This document shows positions 45,504-63,084 of a stretch of DNA of 64,000 nucleotides, piece after piece (the stretch's first letter is position 1; every line of letters starts with the position of its first letter). The stretch spans positions 1,922,001 through 1,986,000 of the forward strand of contig JANTQA010000015.1 in NCBI GenBank assembly GCA_027625915.1. Reading direction: 5' to 3'. The translations under genes and the position numbers were made by a program. A model generated the notes under the pieces. That model had not been told where the DNA came from, searched no databases, and saw only the letters and a list, made by a program, of their open reading frames with translations. This DNA comes from Anaeramoeba flamelloides. Its lineage: Eukaryota; Metamonada; Anaeramoebidae.

Positions 45504-48500
45504 ATGTCAAAAAGAAAGCTACTAACAGAAACCCAACTCTTAAAAGAGCAGGAAAAGCGAAGAAAACAGAAAGAAAAGAAATCAATCAAACTAAAAAAAA
45601 GATCAAAAAAGAACAAAAATTTTCATTACGGTGCAATTGATCTTGAAAATCTTCCTCACATACCCAAAAAAGAAAAACTGGAAAAAAAGTTCATTCGGTT
45701 TCTTGTAAGTACTTTGCTACCTTTTTCTTGTTTGTCTTCAAAGAAGAAAGCTTATTTAAAAAATAACATGTCTATTTCATATTGGAATAAATTTTTTAAT
45801 GTTTTTTTACTTTTTTTTCAAATCTTTTCATCATTGTTTTAGAACCAAATTGGAATTACTGAAAATAATAGAGAATCTTTTTTTTCTTTATCGGCCAAGT
45901 CGAAATGGTATTTAGTCCATCAACAAAAGCACCTCTTAAATGCGTATTATGTATGTCTTCTTTTTCCTTTCTTTTCTTTTTATTATCTGCCTCTTTGTTT
46001 CCTTCTGTTAAAAATACATTTTTAAAAAAAAAAAACAAACAAGACTTTATCGATTTTTATCACAACAAAAAGAAAACGAAAGAAGAGTAATAGAATAACA
46101 GTTTCTTAACAGTACTGGAAACCGACTTGGTTTCAGTTAAATTGTGATAGATATGGATCAAATTTTTTTCAACACTCTTCTAAATAAGATTCATAAATTT
46201 CATATACACTTTTTTTGTGTTTACAGTATTCCCTTTAGAAAATTAACCATTTCTTGTCAAACTCGGAGAAGGCTTGCAAAAACATTCCCATCAGATCAAA
46301 GTACTTTTGGTGCAAAAAAAATTGTTTTCACAATTTTTATGAGTACTTGGGATATTATCATCTTCCACGGAGAAGTCTAAAATTAAAGTTTGTTGTTATT
46401 GGGTGTAGCTTACATTCCAACTTCATAGTTCAAATGTCTCTAAAAATTCTATTAGTCACAATTTTAGCAAAATACAGTCAGTTCCACTTTTAAGACACAA
46501 AATTTCAACAGGATTTAAAGTACAAAAAAATCTCAAATTAAGGCACAAAATTTGGAATTTTTAGATATTTTTTTACACAAATTATTTTACTAGAATTTGA
46601 ATTTTGTGCCTTAGTTTGAGATTTTTTTTGTGCTTTAAATTTCGTTCAAAGTTTGGGTCTTAACAATGGAACTGACTGTAGTACTATTAGTCGATCTTAA
46701 CAATTAAAAAATGATCCATAAATTTTTTCAAAAAACCCAATAATTTTAGAAAATAAAGAAGCGCTTCGAGACTAATTTAAGAGGTTGAATTATCAATATT
46801 CGACTTCAAAGTTGAAAAATATATTTCTTAAATTTGTTTCGAAATATAGATTAGTTTCTAAAAAATTCGTTTTTTTTCAAAAAATTCAATAATTCATTCA
46901 GAGATTATTTTTACAAATTATTTCCAAAATATTGAAAATATCTTAATGTTACAATTAGCTTCTTAAAAAAGGAAACAACAATAACCAGTCTTTCGGTTTG
47001 TATGTTGATAATTATTGAGTAAATCTTGGAAATTAAAATTTTGAAAAAATAATTACTTTTGGTGGTTCTAAATATTAGTTGTTAAATCCTGAAATTCTAT
47101 TACTTTTTGGTTTCTATTTTTGGATTTGGAAAAGGAATTAAAAAAAAGATTTTTCAAAAATTACAATTTTTATTTTGTGATTGTTAAAAAAAACAAATAA
47201 TTTATTGTGCAATATTATTTTCAATAGATTTTTTAGAGCCATTTGAACCATGGTGCACTAATGTTATTTACATCCAATTACAACATACTTTAATTATAGA
47301 CGAATCTCTGGTGAATCTAATCCCTTTGGGTGGCCCAAAAATTATGGTAAATTCATAGTACTTTTATGACCAACAACACAATGCTGGTTTAAAAGAATGC
47401 TGAGTAAAGAAATATCCTTAAAATTTAAAATTTAGGCTTTTATGGAAAAACTTATTGTATTTGAATAAAAACATTTTTACTTGAATCCAAATCCAAAATT
47501 TACTTTGGAAAGATTTGAAAATCAGAATCCTCTTGCTCGTCTACCTTCCACTTTTTTTAAAAAAATACTAGAGTTTAGTGCGGTGGTAGAAATATATTTT
47601 CAGTTAAAGTGGGGAGTAAGTGAAATAAGAGGGGAAAAAATTGATATTAAATTTGTCTTTGTTTTGTTCGAGAATTTAGAAAAAGTTATGTGAACCAAGA
47701 AATGTTTTTTTTAATTTTAAATAAAAAAACCAAAAATTGGAATATTTTGTCTTTCCTTCAATTGGAGATCTTTTTAATCATTTTTGTTGAGTAATATATT
47801 GTTTTTCAACCTTTAAATAACATAAAATTAGGATAGTCCTTAATACCAATTAAAAACAAATTCAGCATGTGGTGTCTGCTAGATCTTCAAAAAAACAACA
47901 ATCGAAAAACTGATATTTTTAGAAAAAAACAACCAAATAGACCGACACTCAATTTCCAATTAAAATGGTTGAGGATTATAATTTTAAATACAAATATGTT
48001 AGTTTCGGGAGTGTTGCTCTTTGATGCTTTCTGAGACCTCAAAGATTTTTTTTTTTTTCATTTTTTTCATTCTCTTTGAAAGATTCTTTTTTACTAAAAG
48101 AATATTACAAAATCCTTACATTGTCATATACGGGTGGCTACAAAATAACCAACCACAAATTAGATTAAACTCGATTAAACTGATATTATTCTGAAAGAAA
48201 ATAATTTGTATTAAATTAAAGGAATTTAATCATTTGGGAATCTAAAACAAGAAACAGATTCAATTTTTTTTCGAAATTTTGAATTTGGAAATTAAGAATC
48301 CTTTTTAAAAATTTTTTTTGCAAACTTTTGATTTTTTTGTCAATTGACAACCTTAGAAATTTTTTTTTTATGATTTGAATTTTGCTGACAAAACGAAACA
48401 CAATTTCGCAATATCATTTTTGGTGGCAAATCGACCCCTTTGGTATAGATCAAATATACGATAGGTGACTAGACCCTTAAATTGAAATTTATTTTTAGAT

Positions 48501-51500
48501 AAAATTAAAATCAATGATACCTTTATTGTAAAAATTTTCTTTAAAAAGGCTCGGATTTCATAGATAAAACAGTATATGGTTTAATATCAATTTCACTTAA
48601 ATTTATTTGAAAAATAGCAAATTTCGAGTTTATTTGACGATAATAATTAAAATGAAGTTTTAATTTCTTTTACTGTCATTTTCCAATTCATCAATGAAAA
48701 TTTTTTATTTTAATTTCCCAATAATTGTTTCATCACAATTGGATGAAAAAAATAAAAAGATCTTTATCACCAGATAAATTAAAAACAAAAACTGTCTCAT
48801 GTTAATTTGGATCTTGCTTATTGAACATTTGAGATAAAAGTGAAACTTTATTAATTGGAATTTAACAGTAATTTTTGAAAAAAAATATCATCTCAAAATA
48901 AATTTCGATTTAAAGGGTCTATTTTTGGAAGATATTTCCAATTTTTTTAAGAAAGGATTTATTTTCTAAATTTTACTTACCCTACACAAAAGGTAAATAT
49001 GGAATTAATGAACTTTTCTTCAATAAGAATGTCAAACAATTACATTTTATCTCAAATCCCGAGAAGTAACATCCAAATTGATGTGATAATTTTCGTTTTG
49101 AATTGATCTTGTGAAGAAGATTTAAAATTTTAACTTTTTGTAAAGAGATAAAAAAGATTTGGGATATTAAACTAAAATTATTTCATTTGTTAATTGAAAA
49201 ATGAAAGTAATTTCTGAAAGATTAATTAGAACCTTTTTTTTTTTTTTTCCGAATGATTTAATGATAACCTATCCCATAAAAGAAATGATCTCATTTCCTT
49301 TTTTTTGAATTTACCAATATATAAAACAATTAATGAATTTCCAAATAAAGATTAAAAATTAATACAAAACTATTGGTAAAAATTAAAATTATTTTCAAAT
49401 TGAATGTAGAATTTTACTTTTTTTTAACTATTTAAACCCAGCCCAAAAAATTTGAATTTTAGTTTAATTTCTTTTCAACTTTTCTTTATTTTTTCTCAAA
49501 AATAGAAAAATCCTTACACTTAATCAAAATATTTTTTTTTTCTCAATTTTATTTGGAAAATTTCAACTTTAATAAAATCGAGTTCTTTGGGACTGCTCAT
49601 CCTATGAAAACAAAACAAAAATTTAGATTAAAAATTAACACAAAGAAACAAAAATAATAAACAACTACAAAAATACATCTTTGATATTATTTGGAATTTA
49701 AACTCATAATTTATCTTTCCATTAGTTAATGATGAAGAAAATTGTCATTCTTTATTGAAATTTCGAAACAAAAATGTCGAAATCAGGGAAGTACCGTCAA
49801 GTGTTCTAGAGTGCCTAGGTTTTTTTTTGATTTGAGACATTAAAAGAAAATCTTTGAAATTTTCTTTTTATTTCTCAAATTAAAAAAAAAGCTAACGGCG
49901 GTTTTCCAGAATTCAAAAGAATTGAATAAAATCCAGGATTATACTCTATTCTTTTAAATTCTGGAAAACCCAACGGCTATATGAGGAAATTAATTTCCTC
50001 CCTTAAAAATAAAATGAAAAAAAAAATCTTTCTTTTAAATTCAATTTTTATAATTTTCTCAAAAAAAAAAAAAAAAAAAAAATTCAAACATTAAAAACTT
50101 TTATTAAAATTTTCTCTAACTAATTAGATTTCTTTCTTTAATTCTTATTATCCTTCTTCTTCTTAATACTATTATTCTAATTATAATTATAAATGAAATA
50201 ATAGAATGACATTACAATAATCTCAGATCCAAACGATTTTATTCTGTTATTGAAGGCAAATTTAACAACAAGATGTCTCACCTCTTTAAGGGTTTCCTTT
50301 AGAACAAGAGAATTAACATTTATCGAATCTTTTATTAAACTTGAAGGGCATGTTTTATTAATTGAAAAAATTCAAGCAGAATTCGAAAAAAATCCTAGTA
50401 AAAGGAATTCTATATTAATTTCAGAATTAGTTTGGACAATCTCAGAATTTATGAAAGCAGAAGTAAGTATTAGTTTTTTTTTTAAAATGACATAGTATTT
50501 AAAATCATGTTATTTTAAAAAAGGTGGAAATAAAAAAGTTTTAAAAAGTATCATAATAGTGTACTATTTCATCTTTTGGACTGTCTTATTTGTCATTACT
50601 TTTTAAAAATCACCTACACTTTTATCTAATTAGTGAATCTAGAAATAATCAAATTTTTAAAAAATAAAATACTAACTAATTTAAAAAAAAAATCATATAT
50701 TTATATTAATAGACTGGATATGAAGAAATTTTAAAAATTGAAAATTCGATTGAAATCATTGTATTGGCGCTTTCAATCAGACAGACAACAATTATTAGAA
50801 GAGTTGTAGATTTGTTAAGTTTCATTTTAACAAAAAATCCAAATTCAAGGCAAATCATTTTAAGTATCTTTCAAAAGGAATCGGAACAATTAGGAAAAAT
50901 TCGATTTAGTTCGATTGTTTTAGTTTTCAGAACCAGGTTTTATAACTTACCTTTAATGGCAAGATGCTTAAGATTAATTAATACTTTTTTAGATATTAAT
51001 GATTTAGACGAGAGAATTCAAATTCGATCAGAATTGGAATCCCAGAATATTTTTCAAATAGTAAATGATTTCCCAAGGGGTTTTAATAAAGAGCTTGATG
51101 ATGAAATAGCATTTTTTGAACGACAAACAAACGAAGAAATGGAATATATTCAAAACCAAATTGGTGTATATGGTTTGGTAAATTTAGAAAACAATGAATT
51201 GACGATGCGATCGATAGTTAATAAAGTTGAAAGAAATATAAATAAAAGCCATGTCACAAAGGTTTTCCAATTATTGGTTTATTTATTATATTGTACAAGG
51301 TATTCTCAAGAAAAGGTATTTACTGAACTGAATTTATTTTTAAAAAGTGCCTTTGAAATGTCAAGTAAATTTTTTAATCTTTTTTTTTTTTTTTATTAAA
51401 TATTTTTTTTTTTTTTTCATAGTAATAATAAATAATCTTTGTTCAATAAAAAAAACAATAAAATTTTTTTATTCGGATTTAATAATAATTAAATCACTTA

Positions 51501-54500
51501 ACAATAATTAAATGATTTTATAGAATCTGGATCAGAAATATCTTTTGATAAATTAATGATATTCGGAGAAGAGAAAATTGTTTTTGATAATAGAATAAAT
51601 ATTGGTAAAAAGGCAAAAGTTGATTCAAAATACAACGAAAACAAAGTACAAAACTTGGAAGAATTGCTTGAGCCTACGCACTCTAAACTTTTAAAACAAG
51701 TGGGTGATCTTGAAAAAACTTTATTGAAAGAATTAATGGAATTGCAAAACAAAAAGCATTCAATTAGAAAAACAATTGATTACGAAGAAACAAGATTCAA
51801 TCAAAAAATTCGAAAATTACAAAATGAGGAAAGGCTTCGAGATGAATTTTTATCAAAAACTGTAAATAAAGTCTCTGAAGATATATTAAACCAAGAAAAA
51901 GCAATGAGAGAAAAAATAATTCAAAAATTAAATGATCAATTTCAAAAAGAATATGAAAAAGATATCAAACAAGAAATTACGGAGATCAACCAAATTTTAG
52001 AAAAGGCAACTTCTGAATTTAAAAGTGATGAAAAAGATTATAACGCCAAGATCGAGAAATTAACCGAGGCTTATGATAAAATTAATATTGGGTTTGAACA
52101 ATTAAAAGAAGAAAAAAAAGTAATTGCCCTCCCAATAGATCGAGAGTTGACCGTGGGAAAAGTTCAAGAATTAAAGAAACAACGTGAGGAAGAAGAAAAG
52201 AAAAGAAAAGAAGAAGAAGAAGAACTGGAAAAGGGAAAGGGAAAGGAAAAAGAAAAGGAAAAGGAAAATAAGGGCTCGACTATACCACCACCACCAAATT
52301 CAGGAGGAGGGGGGGGAATACCGCCACCACCGAATTCAGGAGGAGGAGGAGGAAGAATACCGCCGCCACCGAATATGGGAGGAGGAGGAGGGATACCACC
52401 ACCACCAAATATGGGGGGGGGTGGAATGCCACCGCCACCAAATATAGGAGGGGGCGGAATGCCACCGCCACCAAACTTTGGAAAGGGGGGCGGATTACCA
52501 CCACCGCCAAACTTTGGGCAAGGAGGCGGAGGATTAAATTTAGGCTCTCAAGGAAAGAAAAATGTCAAAGCAAAGGTGCCCTTAAAGGCACTGCATTGGC
52601 AAAAGATTAAAGACACACAATCCAAAGAAACTCTCTGGAATGATCTTGATGATGAGAAAGTTGAAATTGATCTTGATGATTTTTTAGAAAAATTTAAAGT
52701 CAAAAAAAGGGTCATAGGTAAAGTGAATAATAAAGATAACACAAAACCAGAAACTGTCAGTGTTAAAAAGGAAGTGATTAGATTGGTCGATCCAAAAAAG
52801 TTTTCAAATTTGGAACTGATTTTACCAAGTTTCCGTTTAACTTATGAGGAGATTAAAAATGCCATTTTTTCTTTAGACGAAAGGATTTTATCTGAACAAC
52901 GTATTCGAACACTTGAAAAGTATTTGCCAGATAATAATGAAATTAACCAATTGAATAACTTTGATGGCGATAAGGAGCTTCTCGGCGATTGCGAAAAATT
53001 TTATTTAGAATTGATTAAAATACCCAGATTACAACAAAGGATCAAATTATTTATTTTTAAATTATCATTTAAAGAAATTGTAACCGATCTTCAGCCTTCT
53101 TTGAAAAAATTGCTACAGGCAACACAGCAAATTAAAACGAATAAAGATTTCAAAAAGTTTTTACAATTTGTGTTAAAATTTGGTAACTATTTAAATGGTG
53201 GCACCAATCGTGGCGGCATTTCTGGCTTTAAATTAAGAACGCTCATAAAATTAAAAGATACCAAATCTTCAAAGGTCTCTCAAATATCCTTCCTTCATTA
53301 TATTTGTATGTACCTAGATAACAAGGAGCCTGAAATTTTTGATTTCTTAGACAAGTTTGCAGTGGTAACCAATGCTTCAAAACTTTCCTTGTCGCAATTG
53401 CAAATTCAAGTGAACGACATTGAAAGGGGAATAATTAATCTCGAGAACGAACTGCCTTTCCATCAAATGCCAGTGACAGATAAGGATAAATTTAAAAAAT
53501 TAATGACCGAGTTTCTTCGAGAAGCCAAAAATACTTTAGAAATCATTTCAAAAATGAATGAAAAAATTGATCCAAATTTTAAGGAATGTGTTTCGTTATT
53601 TGGCGAAAATCCCCAATCTTCAAAGCCTGAAGAATTCTTTGGCTTGGTCAGTTCATTTATTACAGATATTAATAATGCTCGAAAGGATAATAAGAAAAGA
53701 AAATTAGATGAAGAGAAGAAAAAAAGGAAATCAACAAATTTAAAAAGAAAAAGTTTCCGTGGAAAAGCAATGATCAGAGGTAGAGGTAAAGGCCAAGGTC
53801 AAGATCAAAATGTTGATATGGAAAGTGGGCGGGGACGGGGGAAGAGGAGTGGGAGTGGGTTTAAATTTCCAAATGTAAACCAGCGTGGTAGAGGAATTGG
53901 CGGGCTAATGTTTAATCCCAATGAAATAAAAGGTGGGCTGAAGAAAGTGAAAAGCCAACCCAAAAAGAAAGTAGAAACAGAGCATTTACAAAAAATTGAC
54001 TTTAGATCGCATTTAAAAAAATCTAATAAAAATCTAACACAAGTCGGTGAGAACCAAAATATTAATTATAATAACAACCCCAAAAAAACTACTTCTTCCA
54101 AAGAAGACATTATTAAAAGAACTCAAAGGTTGTCTGGGAGATTTAACCCCCCAATGATAACAGGTGATATGAAAATTAATTTAAAAAAAACAAATTCAAC
54201 CAGAGTGAAAAAAAGTAATTCAAAAATTACTGACCAAAATAAATTTATAAGGCCACAATTAAAAAAAACTAATTCGAAGACAAACAGTGGTGACATGCCC
54301 AAGATAGATGAAGGTAACGGTCCAATTGATTTTAGATCGCATCTAAGAAAATCTGGCAGGTTCAAACCTATTGAAACCAAACAGGAAAATTCAAATGAGA
54401 ATAATTTTGATTTTAGATCAGTATTAAGTAAAAGAAATCTCAATGAAAAAAAGACACAAATACCTAAAGAGAACGATAATAATCAAAATTATGTTGTTGA

Positions 54501-54546
54501 TTTTAGAAAAAAATTAAGAAAAGTTCGAAAAACAGACGAGAATTAA
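45504..54546 (+). CDS. Diaphanous-type formin (five exons)
   Basis: Exons are 45504-45704, 45843-45950, 50205-50462, 50713-51364 and 51524-54546; introns are 138, 4254, 250 and 159 bp, all GT-AG, and phases agree. The product is 1413 residues. Residues ~50-400 form the GBD/FH3 region: LPHIPKKEKLEKKF, SLSAKSKWYLVHQQK, then across the 4.25-kb intron DPNDFILLLKANLTT and LTSLRVSFRTRELTFIESF. A coiled coil spans ~430-640. FH1 (about 658-743) has seven IPPPPN-type repeats separated by Gly runs. FH2 (about 757-1130) has the hallmark LKFGNYLNGGTNRGG and GFKLRTLIKLKDTKS. The tail is RG-rich (about 1150-1190) and then has four DFRxxL motifs (1232, 1342, 1369, 1399). Formins nucleate and elongate actin filaments; the GBD/FH3 binds Rho GTPases and autoinhibits. 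No standard DAD was recognised. The first two exons are joined to the rest by domain continuity, which is strong inference. Confidence 0.88.
46473..46680. mobile_element. Palindromic MITE with Tc1/mariner-like ends, copy 4
   Basis: About 208 bp, inside the long formin intron. Both ends are intact: TACAGTCAGTTCCACTTTTAAG at the left, complement of TACAGTCAGTTCCA at the right. The halves mirror each other around a T-rich centre. This is one of the best kept copies. Confidence 0.88.
46790..47250 (+). repeat. Dispersed repeat, copy 2 (partner at 26085-26530)
   Basis: Collinear with 26085-26530 through aaatatatttcttaaatttgt, aaatatcttaatgttacaa, aaaaaggaaacaa and ttttattttgtgat. The upstream part (46360-46440, 46830-46870) also resembles 15785-15850 and 16010-16040. 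Non-coding, inside the formin intron. Confidence 0.6.
47850..48480 (+). repeat. Dispersed repeat, copy 2 (partner at 28540-29260)
   Basis: Collinear with 28540-29260: gatatttttagaaaaa, cactcaatttccaatt, tgttagtttcgggagtgt, tctgagacctcaaagatttttt, aaattagattaaactcgat. Non-coding, inside the formin intron. Confidence 0.65.
49575..49800 (+). mobile_element. Decayed LINE ORF2 3'-end trace
   Basis: A frame near 49582 reads VLWDCSSYENKTKI before a stop, close to the LWNCPAYENKRKIW of the open LINE end at 42891. Further on, IFDIIWNLNS resembles the IFDIIRKRD of that copy. Several stops are present. Confidence 0.5.
49830..50020. repeat. Hairpin repeat, best-formed copy
   Basis: ggttttccagaattcaaaagaattgaata (left) is answered by tattcttttaaattctggaaaacc (right) at about 49892-49972, forming an imperfect hairpin. 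An outer pair of fragments, aaagaaaatctttgaaattttc and gaaattaatttcctccc, flanks it. Related copies lie near 17600-17710, 25480-25840, 61860-61920 and 62040-62090. Confidence 0.7.
52280..52530 (+). repeat. GC-rich minisatellite coding for the formin FH1 domain
   Basis: Seven imperfect ~27-39-bp units, each with ccaccaccaccaaa and a run of gga or ggg codons. It is the most GC-rich stretch noticed in the window. All units remain in frame, encoding PPPPN separated by poly-Gly. Each proline run can bind profilin-actin. Confidence 0.9.
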
Positions 54547-55739
54547 TACTTTTATTTTATTTCTAATATTAATAAAAAAATTTTTTTTGTTATTAATTTA
54601 TCTTTTTCTTTTTAGAATATATTTTTGAAATGAATTTTTTCAATTTGGATTTTTATTTTTGTTTTTGTTTTTTATTTTTTTCTTCTTTGTTTCTTCATTT
54701 ATATTTAAAATAATTCTAGATTTAAATATTCAAAAATAAAATACAAATTTTTATTTTTTTTTTAAAAAAAAAAAAAAACGATTAATTTTCGAAATTTTTT
54801 AAATTATATTGAGGAATAATTCATTTTTCTTCTTCAAAAGTATGTGTTTATTGTTTGATAATCTATTGCTAATAGAATAATAAAAACACTAGAGTATTAT
54901 TATATTTTGAGGAAAAGGATCTCTATTTTTTCATAATATTTATCTGGCAAAATATAATCTTGAAATAATACTTGAGAGATATATTTAACTCGATCCAAAA
55001 AAAAAAAAAATTTGGAACACCTATTGAAATATTGATTAATTAGAAAAAAATTTGATTTTCTTTTTTTTACTTAAATCAAGAAAAACTTAGGTAAATTGTG
55101 TTATTATCTCTAGATGCGGGGTACTGGTACCCAAATTTATATCTTTTTTTAAAGATTTTTAGTATTGTTCATTTTCCGATTTTTAGTCTTAATTTTTATT
55201 TTTTACCTTACTTTTTAAAACCATAAGACTTTGATGTAAAATTTTCATCATTAAACAATAATTTTGATGATTTTGATTAAAGAGATTATTAAGTTGGGAG
55301 TTTTTTTTTCTAAGAATTAATTTGATTTTTTGAGATTTTTTTCAGAATTTGATCTTTTTAGTGGTATAAAATTTGGTTTTTAAAGTTTAAAAATAGGAAA
55401 TAAATCTATTTTGAATTATTTCAATTTCACATATCTTTATTGAGTAACGAATAATCTCTAGAATATTATCAGAATTTTTTTCCTTTTTATTAATATTGAA
55501 GAAATGTAAAATTAGATTCTCGGTGTATTATTACTTGAATTTTCTGAAAGAGTGGTTGAAACATAAAACTACTAGATTTTGCGATTTTTAATTTAAAGAA
55601 TTTTTCCATTTTTTTTTGATATTCAAAGGTCAAAGTAAAAAGCAAAAACATAAAATTGAAAAAAAAAAAAAATGTAATTTAAAATGGGTTTATTGGAAAG
55701 CAATTAGTATAAAAAGTCAAAATTCAAAAAAAAGGAATA

Positions 55740-58273: not shown

Positions 58274-61200
58274 ATGATGATGTGGCCACTGTACAACTCT
58301 TATTCTCAAAAAGAAGAAACCAAAAAAGAAAAACCCTTATCAAATCTGAATCTTGAACCACAAGGTACCGATCGACAAGAAATAAAAAATTGAAATTTAA
58401 CTTTTTTCCTCAAACACTTTTCTTTTTCTTTGCTTCTGGATTAAAAAAAAAAAAATCAATAAATACTTTTCAAATAGAAATGCAAACCAAAAGTTGTTCA
58501 AATAATTATATCTCTACAAGTCTCAAAACATTTCCAAAAACACAAGATCTTGACCTTCAAACAAAACTCCCACTTAGTGTCACGATCCAGCCATTTGCTG
58601 AAAGAAAAAAGGAAATGAAAAACAATCAGGATATCCCAGTGATTAACTATGGCAAAGAAAATTTTGTTCGTTGTGAATGCGGGGGCTATATGAATCCTTT
58701 TGTGCAACCAAATTTCATGTCTTTTCACTATACCTGTCCGCTTTGTGGCACCACAAGCAATTTCCCGGAGTGGTGGATCAACAGCAATTCCCAGAGCGGT
58801 TATCAAGGCAATAACATGGAATTGAACAAACGAGTTGAATTCAGTGATTCTGTCATCGAATTTCAGGCAAATTCCAAATACCAAAACCGTCAGACAAGCG
58901 ATCCGATCTATTTTTTTTTAATCGAAATATCTGAATATACAATCAATAACAATCTTGTTGCACTTATGTGCAAGTCCATTAAAAAATGGATCAAGTCAAA
59001 GCTGATCGACAAGGAAGCAAGTAATTCTCAAAGCATTAAGGTTGGCATCATTTGTTTCCATTCTGTTGTTGATGCCATCTTAATCAAAAAGAAGTCCAAA
59101 AGACCCGAAATAATTACCCTTGGCGATCTAACAGATTACTTTGTTCCTTGCCCAACAAAGAGTTGTATCGTGAAAATCAAAACGCATTACAAATCCATCT
59201 ATTCTGCACTACAATTAATACCCGAAATATATAAAAAAAAAATCAACCACCAGCCAATAAAGCAAAGCAAGGATCAGCAAAGCACCTCCGAAAGTTGCCT
59301 GAGCTTTGCTTTACAAATATCTTTTGGTTTTTTAAATTCTGTTGGTGGTAAATTAATTTGCTTAATTGCCAATCGCCCCAATCTATCAAAGGGCATGTTA
59401 AGAAACAGAGAAAACCAAGAATTGGTTGGCTCCAAGGAGGAAAGCACATTGCTTAACCCGGAAAAGGATTCAATCCATGGACAGTTTTGGAAGCAAATAG
59501 CGAAGAAATTTTCAAAATATTATATTTCTGTGTCATTGTTTTTGTTTCCTTTCCAATATTTAGATATCGCCACTTTAGCTCAGTTGACACACTACACTGC
59601 CGGTGAATTATTTGTTTACGATAATTTGTCTTTGCAAACTGCTCACAAATTAAGATCATTTCAAAGACAATTGACCCAATTATTAAACAGAGAAGATTGT
59701 TGGGAAGCAATAATTAGAACCAGAATTTCTTCTGGTTTTTCCATAAAGCAATATTTCACTGATTGTTTAATTTCAAACGATGATTTATTATACGTTCCAA
59801 ATATTTCACCTGATTACAGTTTGAATATCCAATTACAAATTCATTCAAAGGAAATTATTTCAAATTATTTATTCATACAAACAGTTGTCGTGTAATTAAA
59901 TTTTTTTCTTCTTCTGATATTTCTTATTATTACTATTCCTCTTTTTTTTATTTTTGTTATATGAATATGAATATACATTCATGTATTAAATGTGATGTTT
60001 GTAAATTGTCTATTATTAGAGAAATTTGAATATTATTTCCGATTTTTTATATTTACAGTTACCTGATAATAATGTATAAATCAAAAAAAAAATTAATCAA
60101 GGTTACTTATTTGGAAATCAGAATAAAAACAAAAATATTGGTTTAACTCAAAATTGAGTTTAATATATTTAATATTCAAAAAAGATTGTGTCTGTCGGTA
60201 TCTCTGTTTCACAAAATTTTTAAGCGGATGAATTTAAAATGATTTTTGTGGTAATTTTTAATAAATATTTTAAAAATAATCCTTTTTTTATGAATAATGA
60301 AAGGGCCAATGATTGAAATAAATTATCAATTAATAAATATATAAGGTATTTCAAAAAAAGTGGAGCATTTTTTTTTATATTTTATAAAAAATCCTCTTTG
60401 TTAGTGGTTCTAATTGTAAATTGGTAATGTTAAATTAAGTGGGATATTAATACTAATTGAATCAACACTTATTTCATTTATTTCAAAATATTTTGATTCA
60501 AATATTTCTAAAAAATGAAACAAAAAATTGCACTTTTTTTGGAGAAAACGATGCACGACCAATTTCAAAAAAAAAAAAAAAATGGGAAATATAGTAAGAT
60601 TACAAACAATTTTTGAAACAATATATTAAAGTTATAAGTTTTCCTTTCTATTGGAAATTTTGTTGATATTTAACTCTCTTTGGAAAACGATTTTTTAGAT
60701 CAAAAAGAAAAAAATAATCACGAATTTTCTCACTTTGAAAGTCCCATATATAATAAAGATGAGAAATTTTAATATCTTTTATTAAAGTAATATCATACCA
60801 AGAAATAAATTGAATTATTATCAACGGTCAATAAATGATTTTTAATAATTTTCTATTTTAACAATTTTATTAGAATTGAGTTGAAGAAAGATATTTTAAA
60901 AATAAATTTATTAATATTATTTTTGGAAATAGCTTATATAATAATAAAAGATTTTAGAAATAACCCAAATGACGATAAAACTAAATAAAAAAAAAAAAAC
61001 TGTACAGCCAAATGAAATTTTATATCTTTGTATTTGGTTAGATAAACAAACTGATTTCCAATTTAACCTTGATAAAAGCCGATAATAATTTTCAAAAGTT
61101 TCTTCATATTTTTAATTAAAAGAGTTTTTCTAATGGGTTAAAAATTCAATTCTTTAAATCTGTTTTACATGGTCAACGAATATATGGATTAGAAATATTT

Positions 61201-63084
61201 GATTTAACAGAAACTGATTTCAAAAAAATTGAAATCTAGACCAAGAAAAAAAAAAATTACATAATCCTTATTAATCAACCCACATTCTCCAAGACTTATT
61301 TATAAAATATACAAAAATTGATTCGGTAAGGATCATAATATAGAAAAGAAAAATCAAATCAATTCAAAAATTAAAAAATCCTCTGTTTTGATGAATTAAT
61401 CAACTATTCTTCCTTTTAGAGAAAAAGAATTAGAATATATTAGTTGGAAATTTCAAAATTTAAAACAACAAGAAATTAAACTAGACAATTATGGAATTGA
61501 TCAATTAGAACAATCCAGTTGGAAATGTCGTTAGATTTTACAAATAAAACAGAAAACCTCAAGAAAACCGCTATTAGGTTTTCTTGAGTTTTCTGTTTAT
61601 TTGGAAAATTGATAGATTTTCGTTAGGTTTTTTTGAGTTTTCTATTTATCTTGGAAAAACTATAGATTTTCGTTAGGTTTTTTTTAATTTTTGAAATAAA
61701 CTGAAAATTTATTAAAATTTTCTGTTTATTTCAAAAAGTAAAAAAAACCTAGAACACTTCACAAATAAAATAGAAAACCTCAAAAAAACCTAAAGCGCTT
61801 AACATTTAAAACAGTAAACTTCAAGAAAACCTAACGCTTCATCTTTTCCTGATTTCAAAAAAAAATAGAGAAAAAGCAAAGATTTTACTCAATTCTTTTA
61901 AATTCTGGAAAAGCTAACAGTGATTTTTTTTTTTTTACTTTTAGGAAATAAAAAAACCTAACGGCGTTTTTTGTAATTGTTGTTTTTGTTTTGAAAATCT
62001 ATCGATTATATAATCAAAACAAAAATTAAAAAAGGCTAAAGGTTATTTTCCAAGAATTCAGAAGAATAGAGTAAAATCTTTGATTTTGTGCGATAAAGTT
62101 GGATTAATCACGGTTTTTTAATATTGCCACGAATTTATTGCTAATATCATGATAATACATGTTATCATCAAACCCTCTATTATTTATAATTTGTTTTATT
62201 ATATTTATTATCCTTTTTGTATTAGATATACTAACCAAGAATCAAAAAGAAGAGTTAGAGTATTATCAAAATGTATTCCTACGACTGAGGTTATTGGGCA
62301 AATTTTACAATCAATTGATATTCAAATATTAATGAATTATTATGTGAAACAATCCATTGAAGAAGGGTTAAAGGAGCCCTTGTTACTAATCAGAAACAAT
62401 ATGATCCATCAATTAAAAACTATTTTTTCGTTATGGAACCAAACTCAAAACGAAAAGCAATATTCCTTAAATTATCAAAATTCTGTAAAAACGAAATCGC
62501 CATTGCCTGGTTCACTGTCGCTTTATCCTTATTTTATAAATTCTTTTATAAAAAATATCTTGTTTACTGGAGATAAACAAATTAAAATCGATACAAGATC
62601 AAATTATTTTTATAGACTAAGATCAAAACCATTAAACGAAATTTTATTAATTCTTTGTCCCCTGTTTTATAGAATTGACAATTTTAAATGGTCAACAAAA
62701 AAAAAAGAAGAGGAAATTCCAGAAAGATTACCTTTAACAGCAAACAATTTATCCGATGATGGTGTTTTTGTATTGACTAATGGGGTGGAAATTTTATTTT
62801 TTATTGGTTCAAATGCTCCATCTTCTTTCCTTTCTCAATTATTTAGTGAAATAAATGTTTTTCAAATTGAGCAATCAAAGCTATCACTATTAAAATTGAA
62901 TAACACAATTAATCGTTCAATTCGATTCTTTTTAAAAATGTTAAAAAAAAAATCTTCTCAAAATATAATAACAATTATTAGACAAGGGGATAAAAATCAA
63001 AATAAAGTTTTTGATTTCTTAATCGAAGACCAAACTCAATTTTATCCCTCATATCAACAGTTCTTTGAAAAAATTATAAATTAA
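58274..63084 (+). CDS. Sec24, COPII coat cargo-binding subunit (three exons)
   Basis: Exons are 58274-58364, 58478-59891 and 62226-63084; introns are 113 and 2334 bp (GTACCG and GTAATT donors, ATAG and TTAG acceptors), with matching phases. The product is 787 residues. Domain order is Sec24-like. The zinc finger is RCECGGYMNPF...YTCPLCG. The trunk follows (YFFLIEISEYTI, VGIICFHSVVDAI, LGDLTDYFVPCP, GGKLICLIANRPNLSKG). The beta-sandwich joins across intron 2 as YLFIQTVVVYTNQESKRRVRVLSKCIPTT. A helical domain (IQILMNYYVKQSIEEGL) and a gelsolin-like end (VFVLTNGVEILFFIGSNAP) close the protein. Sec24 pairs with Sec23 and selects cargo for ER-to-Golgi vesicles. It is short because it lacks the long disordered N-terminus of animal and yeast proteins. 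The first cysteine pair of the zinc finger is C-x-C, not the usual C-x2-C. Confidence 0.9.
60480..60810 (+). repeat. Dispersed repeat, copy 2 (partner at 29690-30010)
   Basis: Shares with 29690-30010 the ordered landmarks caaatatttctaaaaaatgaa, ccaatttca, aaagttataagtttt and gaaattttaatatctttt. The upstream stretch 60430-60510 matches 13370-13500 inverted. Inside the Sec24 intron. Confidence 0.55.
61050..61540 (+). mobile_element. LINE remnant, reverse-transcriptase thumb region
   Basis: The plus strand reads NGLKIQFFKSVLHGQRIYGLEIFDLTETDFKKIEI before a stop, parallel to the IQLFKALILPQILYGLKILNL of the remnant near 40300. Later EKELEYISWKFQNLKQQEIKL could be the continuation in another frame. 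Several stops show it is old and inactive. Confidence 0.6.
61540..62095. repeat. Cluster of mirrored short repeats
   Basis: Variants of aaaacctcaagaaaacc and its complement ggttttcttgagttttc occur about seven times in both orientations. Arms 61550-61569 and 61577-61595 nearly form a perfect hairpin. The tail includes two cores of the hairpin repeat best seen at 49830-50020, each with gaattctttta/attctgg-type halves. The arrangement looks like repeated nested insertion or rearrangement of one small foldback element. Confidence 0.6.

Follow-up and report, generated by a model that had tools for sequence, protein, structure and literature searches.

What would four DFRxxL hexamers do in the tail of a formin? 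The question is raised by a locus of the anaerobic amoeba Anaeramoeba flamelloides that we analysed within a window of 64,000 nucleotides (contig JANTQA010000015.1, positions 1,922,001 to 1,986,000 of the forward strand); coordinates below are those of the window unless a contig is named. The DFRXXL repeats of myosin light-chain kinase (MLCK) are described as F-actin binding in the available excerpts of two papers (PMC6715661, PMC3317649) and are listed in those of a third (PMC2758594), and a sequence-only reading of the window had proposed a formin that nucleates through FH2 and holds filament sides through its tail.

The window formin and its tail

Pfam analysis shows that the window formin (L009) is of the Diaphanous type, with GBD, FH3, FH1 and FH2 at approximately 50205-54546 (+). 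The Drf_GBD part (50205-50456, +; PF06371 E 2.1e-9 on 50205-50492) matches residues 68-151 of the published A. flamelloides protein P0001, and the FH3 (DID) part (50713-51363, +; PF06367 E 3.9e-11) matches its residues 154-370; both were placed by an exact-word map of P0001 and their exon limits are approximate. A single open frame of 1012 codons (51508-54546, +) encodes FH1, FH2 and a tail of 292 residues. Within it, the open frame and word map place the last coding stretch, comprising linker, FH1, FH2, tail and stop (P0001 residues 372-1361), at 51526-54546 (+). The FH1 (52273-52524, +) consists of PPPP repeats within glycine-rich sequence (PF06346 E 7.8e-6, below the curated cut-off). The FH2 (52555-53667, +) matches PF02181 at E 1.4e-92, which secures the earlier identification as a formin, and also matches DIAPH1 structures. 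The closest protein is P0001 itself, named 'protein diaphanous', with 98% identity across FH2 and tail. For residues 1-67 of P0001 the exact-word map gave no position in 46,000-54,600, and therefore the gene start is not placed. Taken as a Diaphanous-related formin, the protein has the expected FH2, GBD and FH3/DID and lacks the C-terminal DAD. Downstream, 58390-63084 contains a Sec23/Sec24-type gene split over at least two frames.

The tail (53668-54543, +) has no Pfam match, no DAD and no WH2, as judged from Pfam and profiles. All four hexamers that had been read from the letters lie in the 51508-54546 frame (+): IDFRSHLKKS at 53995-54024 (motif 1, DFRSHL from 53998), IDFRSHLRKS at 54325-54354 (motif 2, DFRSHL from 54328), FDFRSVLSKR at 54406-54435 (motif 3, DFRSVL from 54409, 27 residues past motif 2) and VDFRKKLRKV at 54496-54525 (motif 4, DFRKKL from 54499, 30 residues past motif 3). 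Each is followed by basic residues, again as first read (KK, RK, SKR and RK, respectively). Residue shuffles of the 292-aa tail contained a mean of 0.0026 motifs and a maximum of 1, with four reached in 0/100,000. The tail is strongly basic, with a pI of 10.7 and a net charge of +47. In an AlphaFold2 model of FH2 plus tail, built with 8 aligned rows (mean pLDDT 60.9), most of the FH2 is well folded, mostly at pLDDT >75, whilst the tail is predicted to be disordered (pLDDT <50 at model residues 415-656) and motif 4 is placed in a low-confidence C-terminal helix. The sequence between FH2 and motif 1 is RG-rich at 53758-53905, and long RGRGRG runs occur in the paralogues L010 and L015.

Recurrence of the motif among A. 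flamelloides formins

The genome contains 37 FH2 matches at 36 loci, two matches being pieces of one frame; at two of the loci there is one stop within the FH2. Tails of all 36 loci were read as the frame continuing from FH2 (20 + 16 loci), and for 16 of the loci the other forward frames of the stretch contained no DF[RK]..L[RK]. DFR..L occurs in 8/36 tails, giving 19 copies: four each in L009, L010 and L015, three in L016, and one each in L011, L018, L021 and L023. Thus seven formin loci besides the window carry the motif, a recurrence absent from the earlier reading. When all 36 tails were shuffled (5,000 rounds) there was never more than one tail with DFR..L, and no copy was found upstream of the tail in 20 formin open frames (0 in 18,716 aa). 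Near forms are DFKSNL (L027), NFRSQL (L017), NFKNQL (L011) and NFTNQL (L018). Including these, tandem spacings in residues are 27 and 30 in L009, 28 and 30 in L016, 26 in L011 and 25 in L018. In the published A. flamelloides proteins P0001 and P0002 four motifs are likewise retained; P0003 has three, and P0004 contains a single DFKSNL.

Among 15 aligned copies, 11 have a hydrophobic residue (I, L, V, F) before D/N and 10 have S after R/K/T; K/R immediately follows L in 13, and the position after that is K/R in 14. These copies were chosen by [DN]F[RKT]..L and therefore the invariance of F and L is by construction and not evidence. The observed motif is more restricted than DFRxxL, being mostly hydrophobic-[DN]F[RK]SxL[RK]K. 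At the place of the motif, members of a DAD-bearing clade (L012, L013, L014) have NWLAQLKK or NWLDQLKK, which may be a diverged version; these octamers score no higher than background with the motif profile.

Constraint on the motif cores

Across L009, L010 and L015, 39/40 positions of the four ten-residue cores are invariant, compared to 101/156 in the remaining tail past motif 1 (Fisher p 5e-6). Values of dN/dS were 0.00-0.08 in the cores (from 0-1 non-synonymous and 3-5 synonymous changes), 0.22-0.32 between cores, 0.08-0.27 for the part of the tail that precedes motif 1 and 0.06-0.09 for the FH2. The sequence-only reading depended on conservation of the motifs, and within A. flamelloides they are conserved, both in these three paralogues and in P0001 and P0002. 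A profile built on 11 motif copies outside L009, L010 and L015 (the same-clade L016 and L027 included) recovers the window copies at 14.9, 14.2, 8.0 and 11.2 bits. The best of 1,800 shuffled tails reached 8.8 bits, and motif 3 falls below it. Further conserved blocks lie at 53881-54282, ahead of motif 1 and in the interval from it to motif 2 (QRGRGIGGLMFNPNEIKGGLKK, IIKRTQRLSGRFNPP and KFIRPQLKK), and therefore the motifs are not the sole constrained part of the tail. The LKK pieces in these blocks resemble eroded motif copies, yet score at background.

DAD and the FH2 tree

A DAD profile built from 17 DADs of the genome was positive in 21/36 tails, 4 of them beyond those 17. The window tail scored -0.2 bits, with shuffles up to 8.5, and the in-species WH2 profile was at background, bearing out the earlier statement that neither element is evident; a cryptic DAD in the window tail was rejected on the same score. 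L027 scored -0.9 bits, and L010, L015 and L016 were not among the tails listed. The FH2 tree comprised 20 of the 36 loci and six outside proteins (26 rows in all), one of the latter cropped too widely, and its root is not fixed. In it, L009, L010, L015, L016 and L027 form one clade with support of 100/99, all five without DAD. The motif is also present in L011 and L018 (100/100) and in L021 and L023 (100/99), both pairs having a DAD, so that it occurs in three separate FH2 clades. The motif is itself not a DAD, because four DAD-bearing formins also carry DFRxxL; as a relative of DAD it was rejected by comparison of profiles (hhalign probability 0.1%).

The clade of the window, four of whose five members have three or four copies, may have lost the DAD and multiplied the motif, which we infer on a tree without a fixed root. 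Given the absence of DAD in this clade, control by DID-DAD closure was probably lost or replaced; the window formin retains GBD and FH3 despite having no DAD.

Occurrence outside formins and outside Anaeramoeba

A strict DNA pattern gave 24 matches in the genome (18 in the reversed control), of which nine were formin motifs and 15 fell in frames of 7-69 codons. The pattern recovers 9/19 of the known DFR..L copies, such that other carriers may be missed. We judged the 15 non-formin matches not to be genes, although a very short exon is conceivable for them. As all 15 lie in short frames, the motif looks formin-specific at this sensitivity of 9/19. A relaxed pattern gave 443 matches against 149 in the control; among the 100 of these that were listed, 53 were one repeated 24-mer and its variants, eight were formin motifs, seven had already been read and 32 were others. 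We therefore take the excess to be mostly the 24-mer repeat.

This 24-mer, which reads DFRKVLKK in one frame, recurs on many contigs. Two copies were read, L075 (C1:1873500-1874600) and L076 (C9:4242500-4243400), in frames of 19 and 23 codons. Close to the copy in L075 is a frame that we take to be a mariner-like transposase. The repeat has no Rfam match and is probably part of a transposon and not a gene.

Word-limited searches returned 19 proteins (P0001-P0019), of which 15 are not named A. flamelloides; A. ignava was not among them. DFR..L is absent everywhere in these 15 formins from outside Anaeramoeba. The scan of formins suggested by the sequence-only reading finds the motif in 8/36 A. 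flamelloides tails and in 0/15 of the proteins from outside the genus. Near forms in the outside proteins occur in the FH3 region (DFRLHI in P0006, NFRLHL in P0010), within FH2 or at its end (NFRAMF in P0006, NFKEIV in P0007, DFKAQI in P0013, NFRQQI in P0017) and in the tail of P0007 (NFRRDL, with no basic residues after it). Some of these proteins have a short tail, and P0012 stops at FH2. A word-limited search with the tail in 5.8 billion proteins returned only P0001 and P0002 of A. flamelloides.

The motif profile was also run against solved structures, where the six sequences matched up to E 10 were judged to be chance. They comprised chains of Plasmodium P230 (best E 0.12) and 3wkv, an 'Ion channel' (E 0.68) that we take to be a voltage-gated proton channel. 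Since 3wkv contains DFRSRLRK, the letters of DFRxxL are alone no proof of actin binding.

Possible function of the tail

Starting from the observed domains, motifs, constraint, charge, predicted disorder and absence of DAD and WH2, we favour a reading in which the tail is a multivalent, basic and disordered leash that keeps the FH2 dimer attached to its filament through motifs binding the filament sides; we put its chances at about even. It is favoured because MLCK repeats are described as F-actin binding and because the Cappuccino (Capu) tail is modelled as touching filament sides, the latter in the available text of PMC10797183. Under such a scheme the FH2 dimer would assemble actin filaments, the tail motifs (mostly hydrophobic-D-F-R-S-x-L-[KR]-K) would bind their sides, and the eight modules per dimer would keep the formin on or near its filament, contributing to processivity. 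The leash may also link neighbouring filaments into bundles, and autoinhibition by DID-DAD would have been lost or replaced in the window's clade. The apparent presence of conventional actins in many copies in the genome counts in favour of the leash. The 110 actin-family matches include 17 full-length frames whose top scores are nearly alike (489.9-493.2 bits).

There is also evidence against the leash. Confinement to formins, as given by the strict pattern, is odd for a general filament grip, and the 8.0 bits of motif 3 fall short of the best shuffle (8.8 bits). Side binding requires no specific motif, as the Capu tail is described as working when scrambled in the excerpts seen of PMC10797183. 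Moreover, the bundling part is weakened because short MLCK is said, in the available text of PMC3317649, to bundle filaments only weakly.

The main rival is that the motif docks a formin-specific partner and that the likeness to MLCK is coincidental. The partner could be the DID or FH2 of the formin itself, or else a separate regulator such as a capping protein or membrane adaptor. This rival would fit the strict pattern, with 9/24 matches in formin tails and the other 15/24 in frames of 7-69 codons, as well as the position of the motif downstream of DAD in several formins and the retention of GBD and FH3 in a window formin without DAD. However, more than half of the known copies escape that pattern, the motif and DAD profiles are dissimilar, and an array of tandem copies fits a ligand that is itself repetitive, as a filament is. 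We consider a formin-specific partner unlikely.

A degenerate WH2 or thymosin-like site, binding actin monomers to feed nucleation, is distinctly improbable. The L-[KR]-K-[STV] of several copies does resemble the LKK[AT] end of in-species WH2s, and many formin tails have WH2-like motifs according to the text available of PMC5047451. However, the 12 canonical WH2 matches listed in the genome include none at a formin, Pfam scans of the tails gave no WH2 match, and nothing was reported at E 10 for the C-terminal 201 residues or at E 1 for the C-terminal 301. With a profile made from the 12 in-species WH2 stretches, L009 scored 0.4 bits, within its shuffles (12 of 31 reported shuffles scored as high). 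The exception to background scores was L015, whose 7.5 bits exceeded the shuffle maximum of 7.1 but came from LKK pieces that are not part of the DFR motifs. By inspection the helix leucines of a WH2 are absent, and the hhalign probability of a WH2/thymosin relative, which we rejected, was 0.2%. Lastly, charge alone, by which a basic low-complexity tail sticks to filaments with incidental DFR motifs, would suit the pI and net charge of this tail and the statements in the excerpts of PMC10797183 that the Capu tail works when scrambled and that processivity loosely tracks tail pI, but is likewise improbable given the residue-specific core constraint in three paralogues and the recovery of window copies by a profile from other formins.

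Returning to the leash, a bolder form of it is that an Anaeramoeba formin clade swapped DID-DAD autoinhibition for tandem, formin-exclusive DFRxxL filament grips, combining nucleator and cross-linker in one protein. As the motif also sits singly or in pairs behind DAD in related formins, the grips would be an independently evolved side-binding module. We offer this form tentatively and lean against it. Formin tails determine filament residence time, and the account for Capu is mostly one of charge in the text available of PMC10797183. A. flamelloides offers a natural series in one cell, from formins with DAD only, through DAD with one or two motifs, to no DAD with up to four motifs. This series would let a defined short motif, and not only charge, be tested for processivity and bundling, and would show how a Diaphanous-type formin is restrained without DAD.

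Comparison with known systems

The SFM motif resembles the DFR motif in being short and linear, in lying within disordered sequence and in the low dN/dS of its core, as described in the excerpts of PMC13364712; it differs in that basic rather than acidic residues come after the DFR motif. We rejected an identity of the two, as [VIL]xx[LIVMF]xxx[FYLIM][ED], a relaxed form of the VxxLxxxFE in that text, was not matched at any DFR copy in the nine tails tested, and one match in L023 overlaps its DAD. The MWHF formins share with the window formin a Drf-type N-terminus with DID and the lack of a C-terminal DAD or WH2. They are an animal family, and the part of PMC5047451 available names no tail motif replacing the DAD.

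MLCK (MYLK) resembles the window formin in repeating the DFRxxL hexamer several times within one protein; short MLCK has three copies (PMC3317649, PMC2758594; both seen as excerpts). The window formin differs in having no kinase or Ig match, in the mostly two basic residues directly after the motif and in its location behind FH2. MLCK copies include DFRSVL and are spaced about 28 residues apart. No common ancestry of tail and MLCK was detected by the tail search of protein sequences or by the motif profile against solved structures, the motif being too short for a profile match.

A further parallel is with formins whose basic tail C-terminal to FH2 sets processivity and is proposed to touch filament sides, namely Capu, mDia1 and mDia2 tails in chimeras and, as a suggestion, Fhod, all from the available text of PMC10797183. 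There, contacts of the Capu tail with filament sides are modelled as raising processivity, and a tail that holds filament sides is thus a less unusual design than first supposed. Side-binding formin tails are an accepted idea; a DFRxxL motif in one was not reported in the open-licence literature that we searched. Whereas the excerpts of PMC10797183 explain those tails mainly by general charge, that of the window formin combines repeated, sequence-constrained motifs with the absence of a DAD.
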